DNA of 35,449 bases from Clostridia bacterium. Lineage in GTDB: Bacteria > Bacillota > Clostridia > Peptostreptococcales > Acidaminobacteraceae. The notes below the pieces were generated by a model. The model had not been told where the DNA came from, ran no database searches, and worked only from the letters and a program-made list of their open reading frames with translations. The position numbers and the translations under genes were made by a program. The stretch is taken from assembly GCA_016937975.1 (NCBI GenBank), contig JAFGVN010000017.1:1-35449 (forward strand), written 5' to 3'. Positions 6,688 to 27,988 of this stretch are shown in pieces (the stretch's first letter is position 1; every line of letters starts with the position of its first letter).

Positions 6688-7191
6688 TCACGGCCGAGTT
6701 TGAATTAAAGCAATTATGTCTGAATAAATCTTTTCTCTATTTTCACTTGTTACATGATAAACCTTAGTCTCTTTTATTTCTAAAAGTGCTTTGAGAAAAA
6801 GATCTGGATGCTCTTTAACCACTGCCAATATCTTTTGCTCACTATTAAACAAGGAGATAATCTTATTTTTAAAAAGCATTGCATCAGACTCTAAAAAGCC
6901 AATTTCATCCATTACCATCCATGTTTGTGGGTCTAAATCCAAATGATTTAAGGCGAATGCATCAAAGTCATTTGGAAAAGAAATTCTGTTATTTTTTTCA
7001 AGAATAGCAACACATAAATGTTGATCCATATTCAAGGCTTCTAAATAAGGTGAAATGAACACTTTTGAATTAGAAATTAAATCAACTTTATTGGTCTTAA
7101 AGCCTACAGGTTTTAATGCTAATTCCTCTATGACCTTTTGAAGAATAGTGGATTTACCAACACCTCTTTCACCCGTTAATATGATTTTCAT
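6688..7191 (-). CDS. THEP1-like P-loop nucleoside-triphosphatase
   Basis: A 167-residue NTPase of the THEP1/DUF265 type: Walker A GERGVGKST (7-15) at the extreme N terminus, a segment WMVMDEIGFLES (91-102) serving as Walker B, and the family-typical spacing PVGFKTNKV (28-36). Relatives hydrolyse ATP/GTP, and several sit beside molybdenum-hydroxylase maturation genes. The start overlaps the XdhC stop by 4 bp (ATGA type), so translation is probably coupled. I infer an accessory role in molybdenum-enzyme maturation from this position only. Confidence 0.75.
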   Translation of the reverse strand: MKIILTGERGVGKSTILQKVIEELALKPVGFKTNKVDLISNSKVFISPYLEALNMDQHLCVAILEKNNRISFPNDFDAFALNHLDLDPQTWMVMDEIGFLESDAMLFKNKIISLFNSEQKILAVVKEHPDLFLKALLEIKETKVYHVTSENREKIYSDIIALIQTRP

Positions 7192-8213
7192 TTCACTATG
7201 CCCTGTTGGGTCGAGCGGTGTAAAATCATTTCTCCTGTAATACTGACTGCAATCTCAGCAGGTGTTTCTCCCTTTATAGGTAAACCAATGGGTGTATGAA
7301 TACGCTCTAGTTTACTTTCAGGAATGCCGATTGCCATTAATTTTTCAAAAGTATGTGCTTTTTTAGATTGACTTCCGATTACACCTACATAGCTACATTC
7401 ATGGTGCATCACTTGTGCTAAGACATCGTAATCCGATTGATGGCCTCTTGTCATAATAACAACATAATCTGATGAAGTAAGTTTAATCTGTTTATCAATT
7501 GATAAGTAATCTCCTACAATACGCGAATATGCAGAAGGAAATAAAGCTTCACTTGCAAATTGTTCACGATCTTCATAGACATTGACTTTAAAACCAACAT
7601 TTGTTAAAAGTGGTACCAATTCTTGAGAAACATGACCACCACCAAAAACATAAACCATTCCGGATTCCGTTAATGGCTCCACATAATAGGTATCAACATC
7701 TTTATATAACATCCCTTTACTTTTCAATAAAGGTTTTAAAAGTTGTTTATTAACGTCTCCAAAGACCAAGCCCTTATGCCTTTCATAAAGACCCATTTCA
7801 GCTTGCTGTTCGTTGTTCACTTTTGTAATCAACCAACTGTCTAGATTCTCTTTAAAAAGCATCGTGATATAGCGAATCATTGCCACTACTTTTTCATCCT
7901 CTGGTTTTATATATTGGAAATAAACCACCACTGCACCACCACAAACCATGCCAATGTCTGCAGTTTCATTGCTCGTTAGATTATAACTGTGTTGAAAGGC
8001 TCTTCTCTCTTTAAATGATTCTTTTGCCAGAAGTGTACTTTCATATTCAACTGCGCCACCACCAATGGTGCCATAAGTTGTACCATCTTGATAAACAAGC
8101 ATTTTCGCACCTTTTCCTCTTGGTGTAGATCCTGAACTCGCAATGATGGAGCATAAAACGACAGGTTCATGATGCTCTAATTTATCCAGTAGTCTTTTAA
8201 ATAAGTTTTCCAT
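7188..8213 (-). CDS. XdhC/CoxI family molybdenum-enzyme maturation protein
   Basis: The 341 residues contain both usual parts: an N-terminal XdhC/CoxI domain (ASSGSTPRGKGAKMLV at 25-40, then GTIGGGAVE near 48-56) and a C-terminal Rossmann-like domain (YVFGGGHVSQELVPLL near 188-203, MTRGHQSDYDVL, GVIGSQSKK, and the closing GETPAEIAVSI). XdhC proteins bind molybdenum cofactor and help insert the sulfurated form into xanthine-dehydrogenase-type hydroxylases; the two-domain form is common in Clostridia. No molybdoenzyme gene is inside this window. It is the fifth gene of the ModE-boxed operon, 10 bp after the binding-protein gene. Confidence 0.88.
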   Translation of the reverse strand: MENLFKRLLDKLEHHEPVVLCSIIASSGSTPRGKGAKMLVYQDGTTYGTIGGGAVEYESTLLAKESFKERRAFQHSYNLTSNETADIGMVCGGAVVVYFQYIKPEDEKVVAMIRYITMLFKENLDSWLITKVNNEQQAEMGLYERHKGLVFGDVNKQLLKPLLKSKGMLYKDVDTYYVEPLTESGMVYVFGGGHVSQELVPLLTNVGFKVNVYEDREQFASEALFPSAYSRIVGDYLSIDKQIKLTSSDYVVIMTRGHQSDYDVLAQVMHHECSYVGVIGSQSKKAHTFEKLMAIGIPESKLERIHTPIGLPIKGETPAEIAVSITGEMILHRSTQQGIVK

Positions 8214-8223
8214 AGAATCTCCT

Positions 8224-9267
8224 TTATTTCACATTGACAATTTGCTGAAACAGCTCTTCTGTTAAAGTACTGTGATAAAACAAATCAAAATACAATTGAA
8301 CTTCATCAAACAAAGTCTTATCCATTTCCTCTGGATATAAAATACTAATCATCCAATGAAGACCTAAATATCTTTGAACAGAAGGAGGAAATCCCATCCA
8401 ATTATAAGGTCCTTCCGGTACTTCATAATATTGATTATTTTGGATGGCTTTCAAGGTTTGCCATGCTGGATCCTTTTCTACTGTTGTATAAATACTATCA
8501 GGGGCAAAAAAAATCACATCTGGATTCCATTTAATAATTTGTTCCATATCCACTTCATTTCCTGTACCTTTGGAAACCGGCTGATCCACTATAGCTAAGT
8601 TATTGGTCATTAAATCAATGATTTCACCATGATAGGAATCTTTTGCAATAACATTTTGACCTTTGTCACCAAGACAATATAGCACATTGGCTTTTTCAAC
8701 TGAATTGGATATTTCCATAGCTTTATTGTAAACACGATTACAATAATCGGATAATTCCTTGCCTTCTTCCTTTTTATTTAATAATTCACCTAATTTTATG
8801 TAAGCTTCACCCATATTACTCATAGTGGTTGTTATATGAACAAAGGGTATGTTCGTTTGTTCTTGTAAATCATTTAAATCACTAACAATCGTGTCCTTAG
8901 GTTCACCAATATCAATTACAAGTTGTGCACCACTTTCCAGGAGTGTTTCAAGGTTCATTTCTCCCTTCCCGCCATAAAGTTGACCTAAAATTGGTAAGTT
9001 ATAATAGTCCTCATTCAGAATCATTTCAGAGGCTGGTGTCCATGGTACAGCTATGCCAACCATTTCATTCGGTGCAATGGAAAACACTACAATTTGCGCC
9101 AATGGCCCTGTTACAGCAATTTTAGTGATCTCCTTAGGAATTGTTACTTCCCTACCAACTGAATCCACAAAAATTCTCGTTTCGTCAACGGATTTTAAGT
9201 TTTCATTACAGCTTATGAAAATTAGACCAACCATTAAACTTAAAATTAATACAATAATTTTCTTCAT
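8224..9267 (-). CDS. ABC transporter substrate-binding lipoprotein (probable molybdate/tungstate)
   Basis: A type III periplasmic-binding-protein (FepB/BtuF fold) lipoprotein of 347 residues. It has a signal peptide with Cys20 at the end of GLIFISC, an opening DSVGREVTIPKEITKIAV strand pattern typical of the family, a long central helix, and near the C terminus GPYNWMGFPPSVQRYLG (286-302). That last segment resembles the NW-PPS-LG motif I associate with molybdate/tungstate-binding members such as MolA-type proteins. Fold assignment is firm. The metal-oxyanion substrate is inferred from the ModE-like operator and the XdhC neighbour; iron chelates remain the alternative. Confidence 0.8.
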   Translation of the reverse strand: MKKIIVLILSLMVGLIFISCNENLKSVDETRIFVDSVGREVTIPKEITKIAVTGPLAQIVVFSIAPNEMVGIAVPWTPASEMILNEDYYNLPILGQLYGGKGEMNLETLLESGAQLVIDIGEPKDTIVSDLNDLQEQTNIPFVHITTTMSNMGEAYIKLGELLNKKEEGKELSDYCNRVYNKAMEISNSVEKANVLYCLGDKGQNVIAKDSYHGEIIDLMTNNLAIVDQPVSKGTGNEVDMEQIIKWNPDVIFFAPDSIYTTVEKDPAWQTLKAIQNNQYYEVPEGPYNWMGFPPSVQRYLGLHWMISILYPEEMDKTLFDEVQLYFDLFYHSTLTEELFQQIVNVK

Positions 9268-9277
9268 TTCTCTCTCC

Positions 9278-9979
9278 TTAGTTCAACTCTGGTATATCTT
9301 TTGTTTTGACTTTTATGATTGCAATCGGTTTTAATACAGAATAAAAATATTGGAATTCTGTACCCTTTATTTGTTTTAAGCTACTTTTGATGACTTCCAA
9401 ATTCACAGGTTCATTAGGTTCTCTGTTGTACAAGTTAAAAAATACCTGTGCATCTTCCAGCGTTCTAAAAGGTTGTCCCATTTCCAATAAAATCTTATCA
9501 ACCCTATAGGGAATATTTAATTTTTCTAAAGTCCTTTTGGAGGTTTCAAAGGTATGTCCCTTATTCGGTTTTTGTTTCATGGTAAATCTATGAAAACTAC
9601 TGTCATTTTTAAAGAGTATCAATTGATCTTTGCACATTTTTTTCCCAATTCTTAAAGCCTCTTCTGTAGAACCAAAAAAACTAAAAACCATTTTATCGTA
9701 CATTTGCTCTGGCATATGATTGTTGATATTCTTTTCAATCACATTAATATTTGTGATATTTTCTTTTGTGATATTTGCGCGTAAAATTTCAAGTGGCGGT
9801 TGTGCTAAATCCACAGAATCTACCTTTGTACAGTGCTTTGCCAGAGCAAGACTCATATATCCAAGACCACAACCTGCATCACAGACATAATCCGTACTTT
9901 TAATTTCTTTTTTTATATACGACATTAACGCCAAATGTGTCTTATTGTATTCATAGGCGTCTGACATAAATTCAGCCAT
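9278..9979 (-). CDS. Class I SAM-dependent methyltransferase in transporter operon
   Basis: Motif I is VCDAGCGLGYMSLALA (residues 32-47 from the chosen start), with an acidic VDLAQPP loop after strand 2. The rest is Rossmann-like, with a C-terminal part that I do not recognise. The ATG at 9979 overlaps the ATPase stop by 8 bp (ATGGCTGA), giving 233 residues. The frame is open to 10066, but an earlier start would bury 95 bp in the ATPase gene. It is encoded between the ATPase and the binding protein of one ABC importer, so it probably acts on something handled by that importer. The substrate is unknown. Confidence 0.75.
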   Translation of the reverse strand: MAEFMSDAYEYNKTHLALMSYIKKEIKSTDYVCDAGCGLGYMSLALAKHCTKVDSVDLAQPPLEILRANITKENITNINVIEKNINNHMPEQMYDKMVFSFFGSTEEALRIGKKMCKDQLILFKNDSSFHRFTMKQKPNKGHTFETSKRTLEKLNIPYRVDKILLEMGQPFRTLEDAQVFFNLYNREPNEPVNLEVIKSSLKQIKGTEFQYFYSVLKPIAIIKVKTKDIPELN

Positions 9980-10775
9980 TTTGGGCTTCCACAAAAACAT
10001 CATTTTCTTGATCATCCTTTTTAGGTAGAAACATGGCATCATCTCCAATCCAATGAATGACCACATCAGTTTTATACAATTCTTTTAAAAGTGCTGCGTT
10101 GATCACAACTTTTGGTTCTCCTATGGCTACAATTCTTTGATCTGATAATGCAATGACAACATCTGCATACTTCATGGCATGTTGGGGATTATGTGTAGAA
10201 AGAATAATAGTATAACCTTCTCTGGATAAAGTCTCCACTTGATTTAAAACAAGTACTTGATTGCCATAATCTAAATTAGAGGTAGGCTCATCCAAAACTA
10301 AAATTGATGCCTTTTGAGCCAAGGCACGAGCTATTAGGACCATTTGCTTTTCGCCACCGGATAACTGATTGAAAATTCTATTCTTAAATGAAACCATTTT
10401 CAATTGTTCCAAGGCTAAAATGCCTGCTTCATAAGCCTCTTTATTGGGCGAAGCAAACCATGGAAATTGATGTGCGGTCCCCATAACAACCATGTCCATC
10501 ACGGAATAGTCAAATGTTAAAGGATGTGATTGAGGGATGTAAGCAATTTTTTTTGCTAATGCCTTGCAACTGAGTTTTTTTAGGTTTTCTCCTTCGATGG
10601 TAATTTCACCACCATATTGGTGCTCAAGTCCTAAAAGACATTTAAACAATGTGCTTTTGCCAACACCATTCGGTCCAAGGATAGCGACCTTCTGCCCTTG
10701 TTCTATGTGGAAATTAATATCTTGCAAGACCTTTCTTTTACCATAAGAAAAACTGAGATTTTTTACATCAATCAT
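9972..10775 (-). CDS. ABC importer ATPase, FepC/BtuD type
   Basis: A 267-residue ATPase with all motifs: Walker A GPNGVGKST (34-42), Q-loop Gln82 in YIPQSH, signature LSGGE (138-142), Walker B ILVLDEP (158-164) and switch His195 in STHNP. The length and the segment FDYSVMDMVVMG match ATPases paired with FecCD permeases (iron-siderophore, cobalamin, or MolC of the MolBCA molybdate importers). Its start overlaps the permease stop by 8 bp. It powers the importer made of this protein, the permease at 10768-11823 and the lipoprotein at 8224-9267. Confidence 0.9.
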   Translation of the reverse strand: MIDVKNLSFSYGKRKVLQDINFHIEQGQKVAILGPNGVGKSTLFKCLLGLEHQYGGEITIEGENLKKLSCKALAKKIAYIPQSHPLTFDYSVMDMVVMGTAHQFPWFASPNKEAYEAGILALEQLKMVSFKNRIFNQLSGGEKQMVLIARALAQKASILVLDEPTSNLDYGNQVLVLNQVETLSREGYTIILSTHNPQHAMKYADVVIALSDQRIVAIGEPKVVINAALLKELYKTDVVIHWIGDDAMFLPKKDDQENDVFVEAQNG

Positions 10776-11823
10776 GAATTGCGCCCTCTTTTCTAAGAAT
10801 TAAATATGCAAAGAATGGTGCTCCTATAAAAGCTGTTAAAATGCCAATAGGGATTTCTACAGATAAAAGATTTCTTGAAATATTATCAACAATCAACATA
10901 AAACCACCGCCGATTATTAAATTGCCAGGTATTAAATACTGATAATTATTACCAATTATTTTTCTAGTTAAATGTGGGATGACTAGCCCTACCCAACCAA
11001 TCATACCGCTGATAGAGACACTGGCAGCAGTAATCATTGTTGAAGCAACAATGACAATAAGGCGCATATGATCAGGGTTTATCCCAAGACTTTTTGAGAC
11101 ATCATCACCTAAAGTTAAAATATTGATTTTATACCGCATGAGAATCAAAGGTGTTAATCCTAAAAGCATAGGCAATGCAACAAAAACCACTTCTTTATTC
11201 TTTGCCCCTGATAAACTACCCATAAGCCAATATGTTATTGAAGGTAACTGATTCGTAGGATCGGCAACCAACTTTATAAGAGAAGTACCCGCTGTAAAAA
11301 GAGAACCAATCATAATGCCTGATAAAATTAAGTTCATCACAGAATTTCCTGAAGCCTTTTTGCCTATGAAATAAACGATTAGCACCGTTAGCAAACTAAA
11401 AATAAATGCTGACATAGAAATCATCATACTTGATCCACCAAGTAAAATAGCCAGTGCTGCGCCAAATGCAGCGCCAGACGTAGCACCTAGTAAATCAGGC
11501 GAAGCCATTGGATTTTGAAACACGCCTTGATAGGATACACCTGCTACTGATAAGCAACTCCCTACCAGAACTGCAAGTAAAATTCTTGGTACTCTAATAT
11601 TTAGAACAACAGATGCCATCTCACTAGACCAAGTTTCTTGAAGTGGTACTATTTCGTTGATTAAAATTCTAAAAACATTAATGATGGATACTTGATATCT
11701 TCCTAAACTTAAGGATATCAAAATTATCAATCCCAAAATTACTCCAAAAAAGAGCAAGCTTCTAAAGGGTTTGTTCACCCTAGAATGCTGCTCTTCCCAG
11801 TTGCGTTCATCATATATTGTCAT
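10768..11823 (-). CDS. FecCD-type ABC importer permease
   Basis: A polytopic membrane protein of 351 residues with about nine or ten hydrophobic segments after a short basic N terminus. FecCD hallmarks are NIRVPRILLAVLVGSCLSVAG, the QGVFQNPMASPDLLG segment, GWVGLVIPHLTR and the closing EIPIGILTAFIGAPFFAYL. It is the first gene of the seven-gene operon, with a GGGGTG ribosome binding site squeezed between the start codon and the palindromic operator. MolB of the MolBCA molybdate system belongs to the same family as the iron and B12 permeases, so sequence alone does not fix the substrate. The operator points to molybdate or tungstate. Confidence 0.88.
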   Translation of the reverse strand: MTIYDERNWEEQHSRVNKPFRSLLFFGVILGLIILISLSLGRYQVSIINVFRILINEIVPLQETWSSEMASVVLNIRVPRILLAVLVGSCLSVAGVSYQGVFQNPMASPDLLGATSGAAFGAALAILLGGSSMMISMSAFIFSLLTVLIVYFIGKKASGNSVMNLILSGIMIGSLFTAGTSLIKLVADPTNQLPSITYWLMGSLSGAKNKEVVFVALPMLLGLTPLILMRYKINILTLGDDVSKSLGINPDHMRLIVIVASTMITAASVSISGMIGWVGLVIPHLTRKIIGNNYQYLIPGNLIIGGGFMLIVDNISRNLLSVEIPIGILTAFIGAPFFAYLILRKEGAIHD

Positions 11824-11836
11824 TTCAACACCCCGT

Positions 11837-11872
11837 TTATGTCGTTATACTAATCTCAGTATAACGACATAA
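11837..11872. promoter_or_regulatory. ModE-type operator (15-bp-arm palindrome)
   Basis: Perfect inverted repeat: TTATGTCGTTATACT (11837-11851), 6-nt spacer, and its exact complement at 11858-11872. The core CGTTATA-N-TATAACG matches the known ModE box pattern (CGTTATATA...TATATAACG). It covers the -10 region of the importer promoter and sits next to a gene for a ModE-like DNA-binding protein. Repression by metal-loaded regulator is the expected mode. Confidence 0.8.
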
Positions 11873-11887
11873 GGTTTTTAAAGTCAA
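11858..11887 (-). promoter_or_regulatory. Promoter of the importer/XdhC operon
   Basis: On the minus strand, -35 TTGACT (11882-11887) and -10 TATACT (11858-11863) are 18 bp apart. The -10 is inside the right arm of the ModE-type palindrome, so a bound regulator would block polymerase. Confidence 0.7.
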
Positions 11888-11942
11888 CCATATACAACAA
11901 CATCTTTGTAAAATTTAGCGAATATTTACAATAGTATGACAA

Positions 11943-12275
11943 TTAAGTTTCCAAGAAAATTTCTTGGAACAGTTTTGAAATGGTGTCTTCTGACAACTTA
12001 ATAAGTTTCTCATAGCGTTTTACCATGTCTTTTCCTGCATTTGTTACAGTTGAACCACCACCACTTTTACCGCCTGTTTGTGTCTCTATCAATTTATAAC
12101 CTAATCTTTTTTCAATGTCTTTTAGAAGATGAAAAGCTTTATTATAGGACATATCCATGGATTTGGCTGCTCTACTGAGTGATCCAGTCTTCTCTACTGC
12201 TTTTAAAAGTTCATAAGGACCTTTCCCAAATATTTTGCCATCCTCTTCAATCCATATTTTACATTTCACTTCCAT
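11943..12275 (-). CDS. ModE-like winged-helix regulator without sensor domain
   Basis: 110 residues corresponding to the N-terminal DNA-binding domain of ModE: IFGKGPYELLKAVEKTGSLS (15-34), AAKSMDMSYNKAFHLLKDIE (36-55) and the wing TGGKSGGGSTVTNAG (67-81). The C-terminal molybdate-binding MOP/TOBE domains of E. coli-type ModE are absent and no such gene is adjacent. The start is placed at the ATG at 12275, which has an AAGGAG site; the frame is open further upstream to 12308 but would overlap the RlmA-like stop. It most likely binds the palindrome at 11837-11872. How it senses metal is not visible. Confidence 0.85.
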   Translation of the reverse strand: MEVKCKIWIEEDGKIFGKGPYELLKAVEKTGSLSRAAKSMDMSYNKAFHLLKDIEKRLGYKLIETQTGGKSGGGSTVTNAGKDMVKRYEKLIKLSEDTISKLFQEIFLET

Positions 12276-12288
12276 AAAAACTCCTTTT

Positions 12289-13179
12289 TTAAAACTTTGC
12301 AACAACAACCATATAATCTACCGTAACTTCCTTTAACTGATCGACGTAAGATGTTAAAACTTGATGATTCGTCAAAGGAGTCATTTCCATCAAGTGTTTT
12401 GCAAGTTCTGAAGTTAAGTTAAACTTATAATTGATTTCATAGGTCTCAATAATTTCCATTTTTTCTGACAAATGATTTAATACTGAAGCATTGGAGTAAC
12501 TTTTTTTATCAGACTCAATCAGTCCACGTATTTCTTTCAAATAATTTTTCCCAGGAATAACTTTTATTAAGCGTCCTTCTGTATTTAAAATCCTATGAAA
12601 TTCCTCATAACTAGCCGGTGATAATATGTTTAAAATAACGTCTACACTTTGATTTGACAACGGCATCTTTTTTAAATCCGCAACAAGCCACAAAAGTTCA
12701 GCAGTATCTCTTGTGGCAATCTGAATACTGTCTTTAGAAATATCTGAACCAATATATAAACCTTTTGATCCTAATCGATGAAACAATTGTGTCAAATGTG
12801 ATCCTTCACCACATCCAGCATCTAATATGACAGATTCTTTGGTGACACATTGTTTTAAAATTCTCTCCAAAGCTTCTAGCATAGGATTAAAGAAACCTGC
12901 CTTTGAAATGATATTTCTTGATTCAAACAAAGATTTGGTATAGATACCTTGATGATTGGTCGTTAATAAATTAATATATCCTTTTTTAGATATATCAAAG
13001 GTATGCTTTTTATCACACTTTAGCAGTTCATTGTCCACAAACATTGGGTTGTGACAGATTGGACATGAAAGTAAATTTTCATGTGATTTAATGGTATTGA
13101 TGACTTGATCTTTTTTCTTTACAGCTATATTCATATTGTTATTCATATCGTTCTCCATATTCTTCACATATTGTATCAT
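12289..13179 (-). CDS. RlmA-type 23S rRNA guanine-N1 methyltransferase
   Basis: The N-terminal zinc ribbon is clear: Cys39-x2-Cys42 in CPICHNPM, then Cys55 and His59 in CDKKH, followed by FDISKKGYINLL (61-72), a signature of the RlmA/TlrB family. Motif I is ILDAGCGEG (118-126). RlmA-type enzymes methylate G745 or G748 in helix 35 of 23S rRNA, and the TlrB branch gives tylosin resistance; which branch applies is not decided here. The first 15 residues are Met/Asn-rich, with alternative starts at Met8, Met12 and Met16. It lies 13 bp upstream of the ModE-like gene, so the two are probably cotranscribed. Confidence 0.82.
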   Translation of the reverse strand: MIQYVKNMENDMNNNMNIAVKKKDQVINTIKSHENLLSCPICHNPMFVDNELLKCDKKHTFDISKKGYINLLTTNHQGIYTKSLFESRNIISKAGFFNPMLEALERILKQCVTKESVILDAGCGEGSHLTQLFHRLGSKGLYIGSDISKDSIQIATRDTAELLWLVADLKKMPLSNQSVDVILNILSPASYEEFHRILNTEGRLIKVIPGKNYLKEIRGLIESDKKSYSNASVLNHLSEKMEIIETYEINYKFNLTSELAKHLMEMTPLTNHQVLTSYVDQLKEVTVDYMVVVAKF

Positions 13180-25069: not shown

Positions 25070-25258
25070 TTAAAATTTCACATAGAAATGCAAAAACTCT
25101 TTGCCTGATTACTTGTATCCTTTGATTAATCTATCAATTGTTCTTCTAGTGCATTTAAGTTTAAAAGCGGCTCTGTTCTTGTTCCCGCTTGTATCAACTA
25201 ATTTCTTTATTATTTGATATTTTTCTTCTTCATTCATTCTTAGTCTAATCTTTCTCAT
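25070..25258 (-). pseudogene. Transposase N-terminal remnant (ISNCY-like)
   Basis: The frame from ATG at 25258 encodes 49 residues (MNEEEKYQIIKKLV, NKNRAAFKLKCTRRTIDRLI, KGYK) that match the helix-turn-helix start of ISNCY-type transposases, where the pattern NKKRAA-KL-CS-R-INRLIK-YK-KGK is typical. A TAA at 25109-25111 interrupts it at the point where homologues continue; the same frame resumes with SGKEF before a second stop at 25070-25072. The catalytic DDE domain is absent. It has a TGAGGT site before ATG. It is a decayed insertion sequence next to the tandem RNA repeats. Confidence 0.6.
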
Positions 25259-25385: not shown

Positions 25386-25414
25386 TTGACTTATGGTTTT
25401 GAGAAGCATATACT
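25386..25414 (+). promoter_or_regulatory. Near-consensus sigma-A promoter
   Basis: -35 TTGACT (25386-25391) and -10 TATACT (25409-25414), spaced exactly 17 bp, each one base from consensus. The start of transcription would fall near 25421, ten bases before the AGGAGG of the 42-codon gene. It is the best-matching promoter I see in the window. Confidence 0.75.
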
Positions 25415-25444: not shown

Positions 25445-25573
25445 ATGTTTAACCTAACTATGACTAAAAAACATAAACCAGTTAAAAATGCATATGCTTC
25501 GCATAATGCGTCTCTTTGTCCTGTTCATTTTCGAAATAGAATAACCAGTAAAGCACAAATCAAGCAAGTCTAA
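25445..25573 (+). CDS. Small basic protein, 42 residues, unknown
   Basis: A complete small gene: AGGAGG (25431-25436), 8-bp spacing, ATG, 42 codons, TAA, then two hairpins. The product starts MFNLTMTKKHKPVKNAYASH and ends AQIKQV; it is basic (about ten Lys/Arg plus several His), has one Cys, and no membrane segment. I do not recognise it. The strong promoter and ribosome site argue that it is really expressed. It lies between a transposase relic and the tandem RNA repeats, and its transcript would enter the repeats only by reading through the terminator at 25613-25644. Confidence 0.55.
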   Translation: MFNLTMTKKHKPVKNAYASHNASLCPVHFRNRITSKAQIKQV

Positions 25574-25612: not shown

Positions 25613-25644
25613 TACCCTTGCAGATTAGTGTAAGGGTATTTTTT
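25613..25644 (+). terminator. Intrinsic terminator before the tandem repeats
   Basis: TACCCTT (25613-25619) and AAGGGTA (25632-25638) with a 12-nt loop, followed by six T. It separates the 42-codon gene from the repeat array that begins 7 bp later. Confidence 0.75.
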
Positions 25645-25650
25645 ATGCAT

Positions 25651-26021
25651 TAAAGGTTGGGCATACTTCTATAAAGCCCTAGACGTTAGTCGAATATTGT
25701 GATGAGTGCAGTAAAAGGTTGGGCATACTTCTATAAAGTCCTAGACATCTGTCGAATACTGTGATGAGTGCAGTAAAAGGTTGGGCATACTTCTATAAAG
25801 CTCTAGATATCTGTCGAATACTGTGATGAGTGCAGTAAAAGGTCGGGCATACTTCTATAAAGCCCTAGACGTTAGTCGAATGCTGTGATGAGTGCAGTAA
25901 AAGGTCGGGCATACTTCTATAAAGTCCTAGACATCAGTCGAATACTGTGATGAGTGCAGTAAAAGGTCGAGCATACTTCTATAAAGCTCTAGACGAAAGT
26001 CAAATACTGTGATGAGTGCAG
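25651..26021 (+). ncRNA. Six tandem 62-bp units forming a structured RNA
   Basis: Units start at 25651 (61 bp), 25712, 25774, 25836, 25898 and 25960 (62 bp each), with no spacers. Each can form three hairpins. Hairpin 1 pairs GGGC with GCCC around a 13-nt invariant loop ATACTTCTATAAA. Hairpin 2 pairs GAC with GTC around a variable 4-nt loop (GTTA, ATCT, ATCT, GTTA, ATCA, GAAA). Hairpin 3 pairs TACTG with CAGTA around the invariant TGATGAGTG. Stem changes keep pairing: GGGC/GTCC and GGGC/GCTC (G-U), GAGC/GCTC (two-sided change), GAT/GTC, TATTG/CAGTA and TGCTG/CAGTA. The single changes would be A-C mismatches on the other strand, so the RNA should be the plus strand. No family is recognised. 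Confidence 0.7.
25651..26021 (+). repeat. Tandem direct repeat array, 6 x 62 bp
   Basis: Head-to-tail copies that differ at only a few positions, concentrated between unit positions about 28 and 48. The unit length is not a multiple of three and no reading frame crosses the array, so it is not a repeat-protein gene. Expansion by slippage or unequal crossing-over is the likely origin. Confidence 0.95.
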
Positions 26022-26095
26022 TACGATAAAAAGATTTTTTAGCAATATAAGGCGTACAAGAACCAACGACATATTTTGTAAGGTGGAAAATTGCG

Positions 26096-26167
26096 ATGAA
26101 TACAATCTATTTATTAAAAAGCATCCCTTTCTTATGTTGGGGATGTTTTTCATTTTCTCTACTATAG
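26096..26167 (+). CDS. Possible 23-codon ORF overlapping a terminator
   Basis: ATG at 26096 with AGGTGG 9 bp upstream, 23 codons (MNTIYLLKSIPFLCWGCFSF, then SLL) and TAG. The peptide is hydrophobic and would span a membrane once. The terminator at 26117-26150 lies wholly inside it, so translating ribosomes would disturb the hairpin, a leader-peptide-like layout. It may be a chance frame; nothing else supports it. Confidence 0.3.
   Translation: MNTIYLLKSIPFLCWGCFSFSLL
26117..26150 (+). terminator. Intrinsic terminator after the repeat array
   Basis: AAAAGCATCCC (26117-26127) pairs with GGGATGTTTTT (26140-26150), giving a GC-containing stem and a T run. It gives the tandem-repeat RNA a defined 3' end and isolates it from the ABC-F gene. 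Confidence 0.75.
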
Positions 26168-26251: not shown

Positions 26252-27988
26252 ATGATAAAAGTAGAAAATATGTCGTTTTCATTCCCAAATAGAAATTTGT
26301 TCAATAAAGTTTCATTTGAGTTGAATCATACTGATCACTGTGCATTTATTGGATCCAGTGGTAGTGGTAAAAGTACTTTAATTGATATGATTATGCATCC
26401 AGATGATTATATGTTTGATGGTAAAATAGGCATCGATAATCATTTAAGATATGGCTACCTAAGCCAATTCTTAAATCTTGATAAACCTGAAGAAACATCT
26501 GTATTTAATTATATTGCGGAAGATTTCATACGCATAGAAAAGGAAATTGCTGAGATATGCTTATCTTTTGAAAATCCAGAAGATATGGAAGAAAAGCTTG
26601 AAGCCTATCAATACGCTCTCGATGCCTTTCAAGCCATTGATGGCGATGCTTATGAAAGTAAAATCGAAAAGAAATTAGGTGTTGCAGGTCTTACAAAGCT
26701 GAGAAATTTGAAAATTTCTGAGATTAGTGGTGGCGAGTTCAAACTTATACAAGTGATTAAAGAAATGCTACATCAACCGGATTTACTCATTATGGATGAA
26801 CCTGATGTTTTTTTGGATTTTGAAAATATCAATGCATTAATTCATCTCATTAATCAACATAAGAAAACCATACTCGTTATAACACACAATCGGTTCCTTT
26901 TAAATCATTGCTTTGATAAAATTATTCACTTGGAAAATAATGAATTGCAAACTTTCGATGGTCGTTACATGGACTATAATTTCAATTTGTTGCAAACAAA
27001 AATTGAATTGCTTGAAATGGCAGTAGCAGATGAAGAGGAAATCGAGCGAAACGCTCAAATGATAGAACGATTAAGACTGATTGCAACGATGTCTTCAGAA
27101 GCATCAAAAGGACGTACTTTAAAAGCCAGAGTTAAATACCAGGAGCGTTTGGAAGCACGTAAAGTAAAGGCACCCTTTATTAATGTAAAACAACCAATGA
27201 TTCGTATGAAGCAAGGTGAACCAGCAGAAAATGTTGTATTATCTGTACAAAACTTGAGTCTTGCCTTTGATGAAGCACTACTCGACAATGTAAATTTCGA
27301 AATTCTACCTGGTGAAAAAATTGCTTTAATTGGTTTAAATGGTACAGGTAAATCTACTTTATTTAGAGCTATATTCTCTAATGATAGTGAGCATATTCAA
27401 ATGGATGACTCTGTTAAACTCAGTTATTTATCTCAACATCAAGGGGAAAGTTTAAAAGAAACAAAAACAATTTTAGATGCTTTTTACGACCTTGGCTTTG
27501 AAACCTATGGGCAAATCAAATCTTATTTGTATGGTTATGGCTTTGATGAAAGTTATTTGAAACATAGGATTGGTGATTTATCCGGTGGTGAAAAAAATCT
27601 GCTTCAACTCGCAAAAGTATCTGCAGAAAAAGGCAATTTCATGTTGCTAGATGAACCTACCAGCCATTTAGATACTTATTCACAATTAGCTTTGGAACAA
27701 GCCATTATAGATTACGATGGTGCAATCTTAATGATCTCCCATGATTATTACATGATTACTAACTGTATGGATTCAGTGTTGTTTATCGATCAAGGGACTA
27801 TTCGTAAAATGAAAATGAAAAAATTCAAGAGAATGATTTTTGCAAATCATTTTAAGCGGGATTATCTTGAGAATGAGCAAATCAAAAAACAACTGGAAAT
27901 TAATATTGAAAAAGCTTTAAACTTCAATGATTTTGATTTAGCTAAAAAGCTCTCTGAAGACCTAAAAGAAATAATCAAAAAAATGTAA
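26252..27988 (+). CDS. ABC-F family ATPase (ribosome-associated type)
   Basis: Two ABC cassettes in one soluble 578-residue protein: Walker A GSSGSGKST (34-42) and GLNGTGKST (361-369), signatures ISGGE (158-162) and LSGGE (443-447), Walker B LIMDEPD (179-185) and LLDEPTSHLD (465-474), switch histidines in ITHN and ISHD. The inter-cassette linker is about residues 240-320 and strongly charged. ABC-F proteins bind the ribosomal E site and act in translation or antibiotic protection; the subfamily is not decided. The first cassette is divergent (MDEPDVFLDF in place of DEPTNHLD). A helical tail of about 60 residues follows the second cassette. It ends at a perfect-stem terminator. Confidence 0.88.
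   Translation: MIKVENMSFSFPNRNLFNKVSFELNHTDHCAFIGSSGSGKSTLIDMIMHPDDYMFDGKIGIDNHLRYGYLSQFLNLDKPEETSVFNYIAEDFIRIEKEIAEICLSFENPEDMEEKLEAYQYALDAFQAIDGDAYESKIEKKLGVAGLTKLRNLKISEISGGEFKLIQVIKEMLHQPDLLIMDEPDVFLDFENINALIHLINQHKKTILVITHNRFLLNHCFDKIIHLENNELQTFDGRYMDYNFNLLQTKIELLEMAVADEEEIERNAQMIERLRLIATMSSEASKGRTLKARVKYQERLEARKVKAPFINVKQPMIRMKQGEPAENVVLSVQNLSLAFDEALLDNVNFEILPGEKIALIGLNGTGKSTLFRAIFSNDSEHIQMDDSVKLSYLSQHQGESLKETKTILDAFYDLGFETYGQIKSYLYGYGFDESYLKHRIGDLSGGEKNLLQLAKVSAEKGNFMLLDEPTSHLDTYSQLALEQAIIDYDGAILMISHDYYMITNCMDSVLFIDQGTIRKMKMKKFKRMIFANHFKRDYLENEQIKKQLEINIEKALNFNDFDLAKKLSEDLKEIIKKM

Follow-up and report, generated by a model that had tools for sequence, protein, structure and literature searches.

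Sequence comparison establishes, in the window (the whole stretch of DNA that we analysed, 35,449 nt), a tandem array of modules whose predicted fold is conserved in three loci and which lies, in each of them, behind a segment made up of a promoter-like site, a small ORF and a terminator. We propose, with somewhat less than even confidence, that the array specifies a noncoding plus-strand RNA of repeated three-hairpin modules that would act as a multivalent platform or decoy for a putative partner.

The array and its units

TRF reported 6.0 copies of period 62, with 91% matches and no indels, at 25652-26023, in agreement with the six head-to-tail 62-nt units of the initial annotation, which had the right locus and limits (25651-26021) that were off by 1-2 nt. 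The six units share 91-98% identity over 55 core columns, and a DNA search of the genome to which the window belongs found the array sequence at this one place only. The features of the window referred to below are as follows.

25386..25414, plus strand: promoter-like site P1, TTGACT-17-TATACT, opening the segment common to the three loci (from the alignment)
25445..25573, plus strand: ORF1, 42 aa, preceded by an RBS-like AAGGAGG (by eye)
25613..25645, plus strand: terminator or attenuator between ORF1 and the array, 10-bp stem and T tract (z -4.06)
25652..26023, plus strand: tandem array of six 62-nt units, predicted structured RNA (TRF, unit alignment and covariation)
25652..25713, plus strand: unit 1 (unit alignment), with the AAA linker at 25652-25654 and GGU at 25655-25657; H1, 25659-25662 with 25676-25679, loop 25663-25675; H2, 25682-25684 with 25689-25691, followed by GAA at 25692-25694; H3, 25695-25700 with 25708-25713, loop GAUGAGU at 25701-25707
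25714..25775, plus strand: unit 2 (unit alignment)
25776..25837, plus strand: unit 3 (unit alignment)
25838..25899, plus strand: unit 4 (unit alignment)
25900..25961, plus strand: unit 5 (unit alignment)
25962..26023, plus strand: unit 6, with the GAGC/GCTC compensation in H1 and a GAAA tetraloop in H2
26116..26150, plus strand: terminator-like hairpin after the array, AAAAAGCATCCC/GGGGATGTTTTT (from the fold)

The window holds no tRNA and no match to Rfam release 15 at gathering score, in line with the initial annotation, which could name no described family with this unit. At E up to 10, nine sub-threshold Rfam matches were obtained between 25600 and 26160, none of them inside the array; RF02637 (10.7 bits, gathering score 440) overlaps its last 28 nt, and RF00557 (L10 leader) reaches as far as its first base.

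Homologous arrays in two further genomes

The model search that had been suggested as a check on the initial annotation recovered homologous arrays whose substitutions keep all three stems. Covariance model R1, trained on the six window units and three units of genome G040, detected arrays in 3 of 41 genomes of the same bacterial family at E <= 0.001. The array of G029 (Clostridiales bacterium MAG21, same genus) has at least four units about 109 nt apart and was recovered although absent from the training set (E 2.5e-14 for the best unit), and that of G040, which belongs to another genus, consists of three diverged units at a spacing of about 90 nt. The DNA search found the array in two of the 41 family genomes, its own included, the one further locus being that of G040. 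Over the 55 core columns, mean identity between window units was 0.94, compared with 0.78 to G040 and 0.71 to G029; units of G029 had a mean identity of 0.83 among themselves and 0.78 to G040, and those of G040 a mean of 0.77 among themselves, which is not above their values to the other two arrays. The G029 array is split by a contig break between the end of contig C11 (locus L030) and the start of C49 (L031), which overlap by exactly 77 nt, so that one partial unit was present twice in the alignment and was removed. The true number of G029 units is at least four and may be larger, and the contig ends inside this array are a sign that assemblies break at arrays of this kind, whose number may be underestimated.

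Wider searches were made with R1 and with a second model, R2, over genome draws that overlap. At the level of the order, R1 gave 3 of 297 genomes with an array in a first draw and, at E up to 0.01, 5 of 393 in a second, these being the same three plus two weak matches. At the level of the class, R1 gave 2 of 356 genomes (that of the window and one weak match) and R2 gave 1 of 391 (that of the window only), as R2 did for the phylum (1 of 398, again that of the window only). Searches over more than 40 genomes used stricter filters, and in the large R1 draws 12-15 of up to several hundred candidates were scored per genome, so that distant members can be missed; R2 is the poorer model for searching, with more than 2000 first-look candidates in the genome of the window, 11-12 of which were scored. 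When E was relaxed to 1, the family search added four more genomes and another place in G040. Weak single matches were seen in G005, G009, G016 and G017 (E 0.19-0.53, rescored at 17.7-19.8 bits). We rejected four single matches that lie inside ORFs, namely those in G1119 (E 0.0045, ORF of 804 aa), G139 (E 0.0096, 308 aa), G441 (E 0.0057, 310 aa) and contig C15 of G040 (E 0.17, 217 aa).

Rfam at gathering score gave no match in the G040 locus (L010) or in the two G029 loci, and at E up to 5 the six sub-threshold matches in L030 3800-4895 all lay off the G029 array, the best of them (trpB, 27.2 bits, gathering score 59) falling on the upstream leader. Searches by blastn gave no match to the window array in phages or plasmids and none to an 876-nt G029 query in plasmids; in phages, four short matches fell at 195-240 of that query, before its array. 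Among viral contigs, one sequence pattern returned no stretches and a second returned six (L068-L073), all of which were scored with R1: H1 alone fitted in L069, L070 and L072, H1 and part of H2 in L068 and L071, and the whole model in L073 at 15.5 bits. L068, L069 and L073 were looked at in detail: the L068 stretch belongs to a family A DNA polymerase gene, and L069 encodes the same RAYTYKALN. We treated all six as chance. The same kind of pattern search over genome contigs gave three stretches, two from MAG21 (that is, G029) and one from Melainabacteria, which had no R1 match at E up to 0.1 and was discarded. With a support base of three loci, all in one bacterial family, the arrays look like a genuine family of structured RNA built from tandem modules, narrow in its known distribution.

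Comparative support for a three-hairpin fold

Units follow the layout GGU-N-(H1: GNNC, 13-nt loop, GNNC)-UA-(H2)-NAA-(H3: 6 bp, loop GAUGAGU). All four H1 variants named in the initial annotation (GGGC/GCCC, GGGC/GTCC, GGGC/GCTC and GAGC/GCTC) are present in the unit alignment. Its H2, GAC/GTC and once GAT/GTC, describes the window, where this arm has 3 bp and a tetraloop, but the arm can be a longer stem, with 5-7 contiguous pairs in the other arrays. For H3, the pairing of TACTG, TATTG or TGCTG with CAGTA stands, except that the stem has 6 bp, the sixth pair being U-G or U-A, and that the loop has 7 nt rather than 9 (GAUGAGU, or AAUGAGU in one G029 unit). The H1 loop, which had been called invariant, is so inside the window but varies across loci (CANACNNCUNYAAAG, closing C and G included).

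The window alone contains one two-sided compensation, so that the covariation first reported from it was suggestive; the homologues make the case strong. With the duplicated partial unit of G029 removed, we counted 13 distinct units (six from the window, three from G040 and four from G029) with 13 pairs each, and 168 of the 169 stem cells were paired (148 Watson-Crick and 20 G-U, with no A-C and one A.G), a pattern that upholds the original assignment to the plus strand. The states of H1 across units include GGGC/GCCC, GGAC/GTCC, GAAC/GTTC and GAGC/GCTC, those of H2 include GAC/GTC, GGC/GCC, AAC/GTT and AGC/GCT, and those of the outer five pairs of H3 include TACTG/CAGTA, CACCG/CGGTG, CATCG/CGATG and CGTTG/CGACG. 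Two tree-based nulls, generated with our own script and akin in idea to that of R-scape, retained the tree and the substitutions and moved the substitution positions. Two-sided changes were observed in 8 of the 13 pairs, compared with maxima of 5 and 6 in the two nulls, the covariation score was 0.605 (maxima 0.349 and 0.379) and the pairing fraction 0.994 (maxima 0.970 and 0.947); in each null, 0 of 1000 replicates reached the observed pairing, covariation score or two-sided count. When partner columns were slid by 1-3 positions, pairing fell from 99.4% to 28-43% (14 rows including one duplicate, 12 pairs). Among core columns, 21 of 29 unpaired ones are invariant versus 8 of 26 paired ones; conservation is thus much stronger in the loops than in the stems, as a functional RNA with binding surfaces would show. 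Because stem pairing is kept with G-U and without A-C pairs, and because of the two-sided changes and the conservation of the loops, the comparison supports the reading of the array as a plus-strand structured RNA. In addition, H1 may be an H-type pseudoknot in which GGU pairs with ACY of the H1 loop, so that L1 would be a single nt and the remaining 8-nt loop would end in AAA: 38 of 39 cells could pair across the 13 units, with one pair broken in one unit and no two-sided change.

Folding energy gives another picture. The six window units do not exceed shuffles in stability (z -0.35 to +0.70), and since two units folded on the minus strand gave similar values (z -0.73 and -0.06), folding energy picks out neither strand. 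For the array as a whole, stability is below that of its shuffles (z +2.3), all 100 of which fold at least as well. All three helices appear in the minimum-energy fold of three of the six window units, H1 and H2 being lost in units 2 and 3 and H2 in unit 4, and in five of the seven units of the other arrays (read by eye), for which z ranged from +0.50 to -3.01. The case for the predicted structure is therefore one of comparison between homologues, not of thermodynamics.

A common segment upstream and terminator-like hairpins downstream

The three loci have a common order: promoter-like site, RBS-like sequence, small ORF, terminator and array. The counterparts of P1 are TTGACT-17-TATACT in G029 and TTGACG-17-TATACT in G040 (10/12 matches), and support for P1 comes from this position common to three loci, not from the site count, promoter-like sites in the window stretch not being above shuffles (6 versus a mean of 6.5). 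The small ORF begins with MF in all three loci and, counted from the aligned ATG, has 59 aa in G029 and 49 aa in G040 (translated by hand); its three products had no Pfam match above cut-off and none in NCBIfam or PHROGs at E up to 1. The terminator that follows ORF1 likewise has counterparts in G029 and G040, and the window array starts about 7 nt 3' of it. Terminator-like hairpins also lie 3' of all three arrays, the one in the window having been missed by our terminator scan because its loop is too long for the scan rule. A second promoter-like site, TTGACA-18-TACGAT or TATGAT, precedes the arrays of G029 and G040 but was not found in the window, where the array would accordingly be transcribed by readthrough of the ORF1 terminator or from an unseen promoter. 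Since similar promoters and terminators surround the three arrays, a plus-strand array transcript is plausible.

The larger genes flanking this cassette differ across the three loci. In the window they encode an Oxidored_FMN protein and an ABC transporter ATPase (26252-27988) that we read as ABC-F, in G029 a cell-wall hydrolase and, downstream on the opposite strand, a GGDEF protein, and in G040 a solute-binding protein and, again downstream on the opposite strand, a phosphate transporter PHO4.

Several other elements were observed around the arrays. The leader from the end of the small ORF to its terminator (L030 4030-4175 in G029; L010 10532-10680, minus strand, in G040) is 78% identical over 146 nt across the two genera and is more stable than shuffles (z -5.2 and -5.0, terminator hairpin included), with no Rfam match at gathering score and no counterpart seen in the window. 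Hairpins of about 25 pairs and unrelated sequence precede the same two arrays (L030 4418-4500, z -9.6, about 100 nt before the G029 array; L010 10100-10200, minus strand, z -8.4, adjoining the G040 array); they are possible processing sites or insulators, and none was found in the window. Divergent from the ORF1 promoter, a 49-aa ORF on the minus strand of the window (25109-25258) has a helix-turn-helix match (HTH_8, E 0.00036) that at 20.7 bits falls short of the cut-off of 22, and is possibly a regulator or a transposase remnant. A 23-aa hydrophobic ORF on the plus strand (26096-26167), with AAGGTGG before it, overlaps the downstream terminator and is probably due to chance. Elsewhere in the window, genes on the minus strand at 6688-12308 were read by eye as serving metal or molybdate uptake and molybdenum-enzyme maturation.

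Alternative explanations

Several other roles for the array were weighed. The ORF1, terminator, array, terminator and ABC-F gene of the window follow one another on one strand, and ABC-F genes often have attenuating leaders, so that the array might be read as a cis-regulatory leader (an attenuator or tandem aptamer) of the gene at 26252. The homologues largely contradict this reading and leave it very improbable: ABC-F relatives in G029 (63% identity) and G040 (62% identity) lie on other contigs (C74 and C17), R1 detected no array in 3.8-4.6 kb around or upstream of the gene start in G029, G030, G040 and G031, and the other two arrays precede opposite-strand genes. Gene order around the ABC-F gene is not kept in the three regions whose ORFs were compared. 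With the ABC-F relatives of G029 and G040 on other contigs and no array in the upstream DNA covered there, the array appears to be an independent unit. A peptide reading, which we reject as extremely improbable, takes the array for tandem, translationally coupled micro-ORFs in which 20-aa peptides run from the H3-loop ATG to a TGA overlapping the next ATG (TGATG). Such coupling would fit the 62-nt period, the loops of units 1 to 5 do give MSAVKG(W/R)AYFYK(A/V)LD plus five partly variable residues with the stop/start overlap, and a partial resemblance to those of the window is seen in one of the three G040 peptides (MSAVIKGRTNLYKVLG..). The coupled frame is not conserved in G029 and G040, however: the same ATG gives 17, 26 and 26 aa in G040 and 8-9 aa in G029 (one cut by the contig end), and the TGA-closed frame, which stays open over 19-29 codons in units of the window, spans 2-12 codons in six of the seven other distinct units and 56 in one. 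The changes within the window also include W/R, A/V and V/I/E and are better explained by stem covariation. If instead the exposed H1 and H3 loops paired with mRNAs or sRNAs, the transcript would be a base-pairing sRNA or RNA sponge. We regard this as unlikely: loops more conserved than stems and multi-copy seeds, a known sponge design, speak for it, but in the H1 loop free positions break up the conserved ones, and the sequence of the loop is maintained from genus to genus. Csr sponges of the CsrB/CsrC/RsmZ type, in which repeated hairpins on one sRNA titrate CsrA, resemble the array in offering repeated hairpins as multivalent binding sites. The hairpin loops of CsrB-type sponges carry repeated GGA/ANGGA, whereas the 372-nt window array contains no GGA, which makes a CsrA sponge unlikely; in most G029 and G040 units GGA is found in the H1 stem, not in a loop.

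The main rival, to which we assign a rather small likelihood, is an orphan type III antitoxin-like RNA: pseudoknotted monomers cut from the array would inhibit an endoribonuclease whose gene lies at another place in the genome. Known type III antitoxins, as described in two papers, are tandem repeats processed to H-type pseudoknots, the monomers of which plug a nuclease; repeat lengths are 34-36 nt for ToxI and antiQ and 45 nt for CptI, and in CptI a one-base L1 is combined with a long A-rich L2 (PMC5086642, PMC4627078). The array shares with the ToxI, CptI and TenpI described there the tandem repetition of a structured RNA and, if GGU pairs with ACY, an H-type pseudoknot whose one-nt L1 and AAA-terminated 8-nt loop recall CptI. 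Its units, however, are 62-109 nt long and have two further hairpins absent from the antitoxins in those descriptions, no known toxin is encoded by the gene next downstream in any of the three loci, and the GGU/ACY pairing lacks two-sided change and is broken at one pair in one of 13 units. A search for ToxN_toxin (PF13958) gave no match in the three array genomes, but control genomes likewise gave none. A role as single- or double-stranded DNA, in nucleoid structure or as part of a mobile element, seems improbable to us. G-T pairs form in single-stranded DNA too, the three arrays have different neighbours, and a single-stranded DNA role has been discussed for STAXI (PMC2864571) and a nucleoid role suggested for the 52-nt Bacillus repeats (PMC8161180). 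Against it stand the single array locus in each of the three genomes, the strand-specific G-U versus A-C pattern, promoter-like sites and terminators that are all on the array strand, and the lack of blastn matches to the array in phage or plasmid records. STAXI and the 52-nt repeats are also nearest in kind to the array among the matches listed from the open-licence literature, in which we recognised no description of the array itself. STAXI is described as a tandem pseudoknot motif near ssb, integrase, topoisomerase or antirestriction genes (PMC2864571); it differs in being mainly a pseudoknot. The array has no Rfam match at gathering score, and no such neighbours were recognised here, genes beyond the flanking ones being judged by eye. 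The 52-nt repeats of Subirana and Messeguer keep length and not sequence and form several families per species (PMC8161180). Like the array, they are tandem repeats of constant length in Firmicutes that may be transcribed, but here there is one locus per genome, sequence and fold are conserved, and spacing varies.

A putative multivalent RNA platform

In the platform or decoy reading that we prefer, each module would present two conserved single-stranded surfaces, CANACNNCUNYAAAG in H1 and GAUGAGU in H3, held by stems that vary yet remain paired, together with an H2 arm of at least 3 bp. The repeated surfaces would each take up a copy of a single partner, for which an RNA-binding protein is the likeliest candidate, and the transcript would be a multivalent decoy, a scaffold or a precursor of monomers. 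We infer, as the initial annotation did, that it may act as a sponge, with a CsrA sponge unlikely and a type III antitoxin-like role as a rival. Unit number and spacing vary (6 x 62 nt in the window, at least 4 x ~109 nt in G029 and 3 x ~90 nt in G040), whereas the surfaces hardly do, a pattern to be expected if what counts is dose and multivalency and not the precise geometry.

A function is known for few structured RNAs with tandem repeats; type III antitoxins and Csr sponges are examples. An array that shows strong covariation, has no known toxin gene alongside, lacks GGA in its window copy and is without an Rfam match suggests a further use of RNA multivalency, and the three arrays together with the model can serve directly as test material for pull-down and probing. 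We tentatively suggest, at slightly short of an even chance, that these arrays represent a new modular RNA family, so far observed in one clostridial family, in which a conserved small-ORF cassette lies ahead of a multi-unit RNA platform for a putative protein. With the same reserve, the fold and the loop surfaces of this family would be its constant part, and unit number, spacing and stem sequence would be what varies between lineages.
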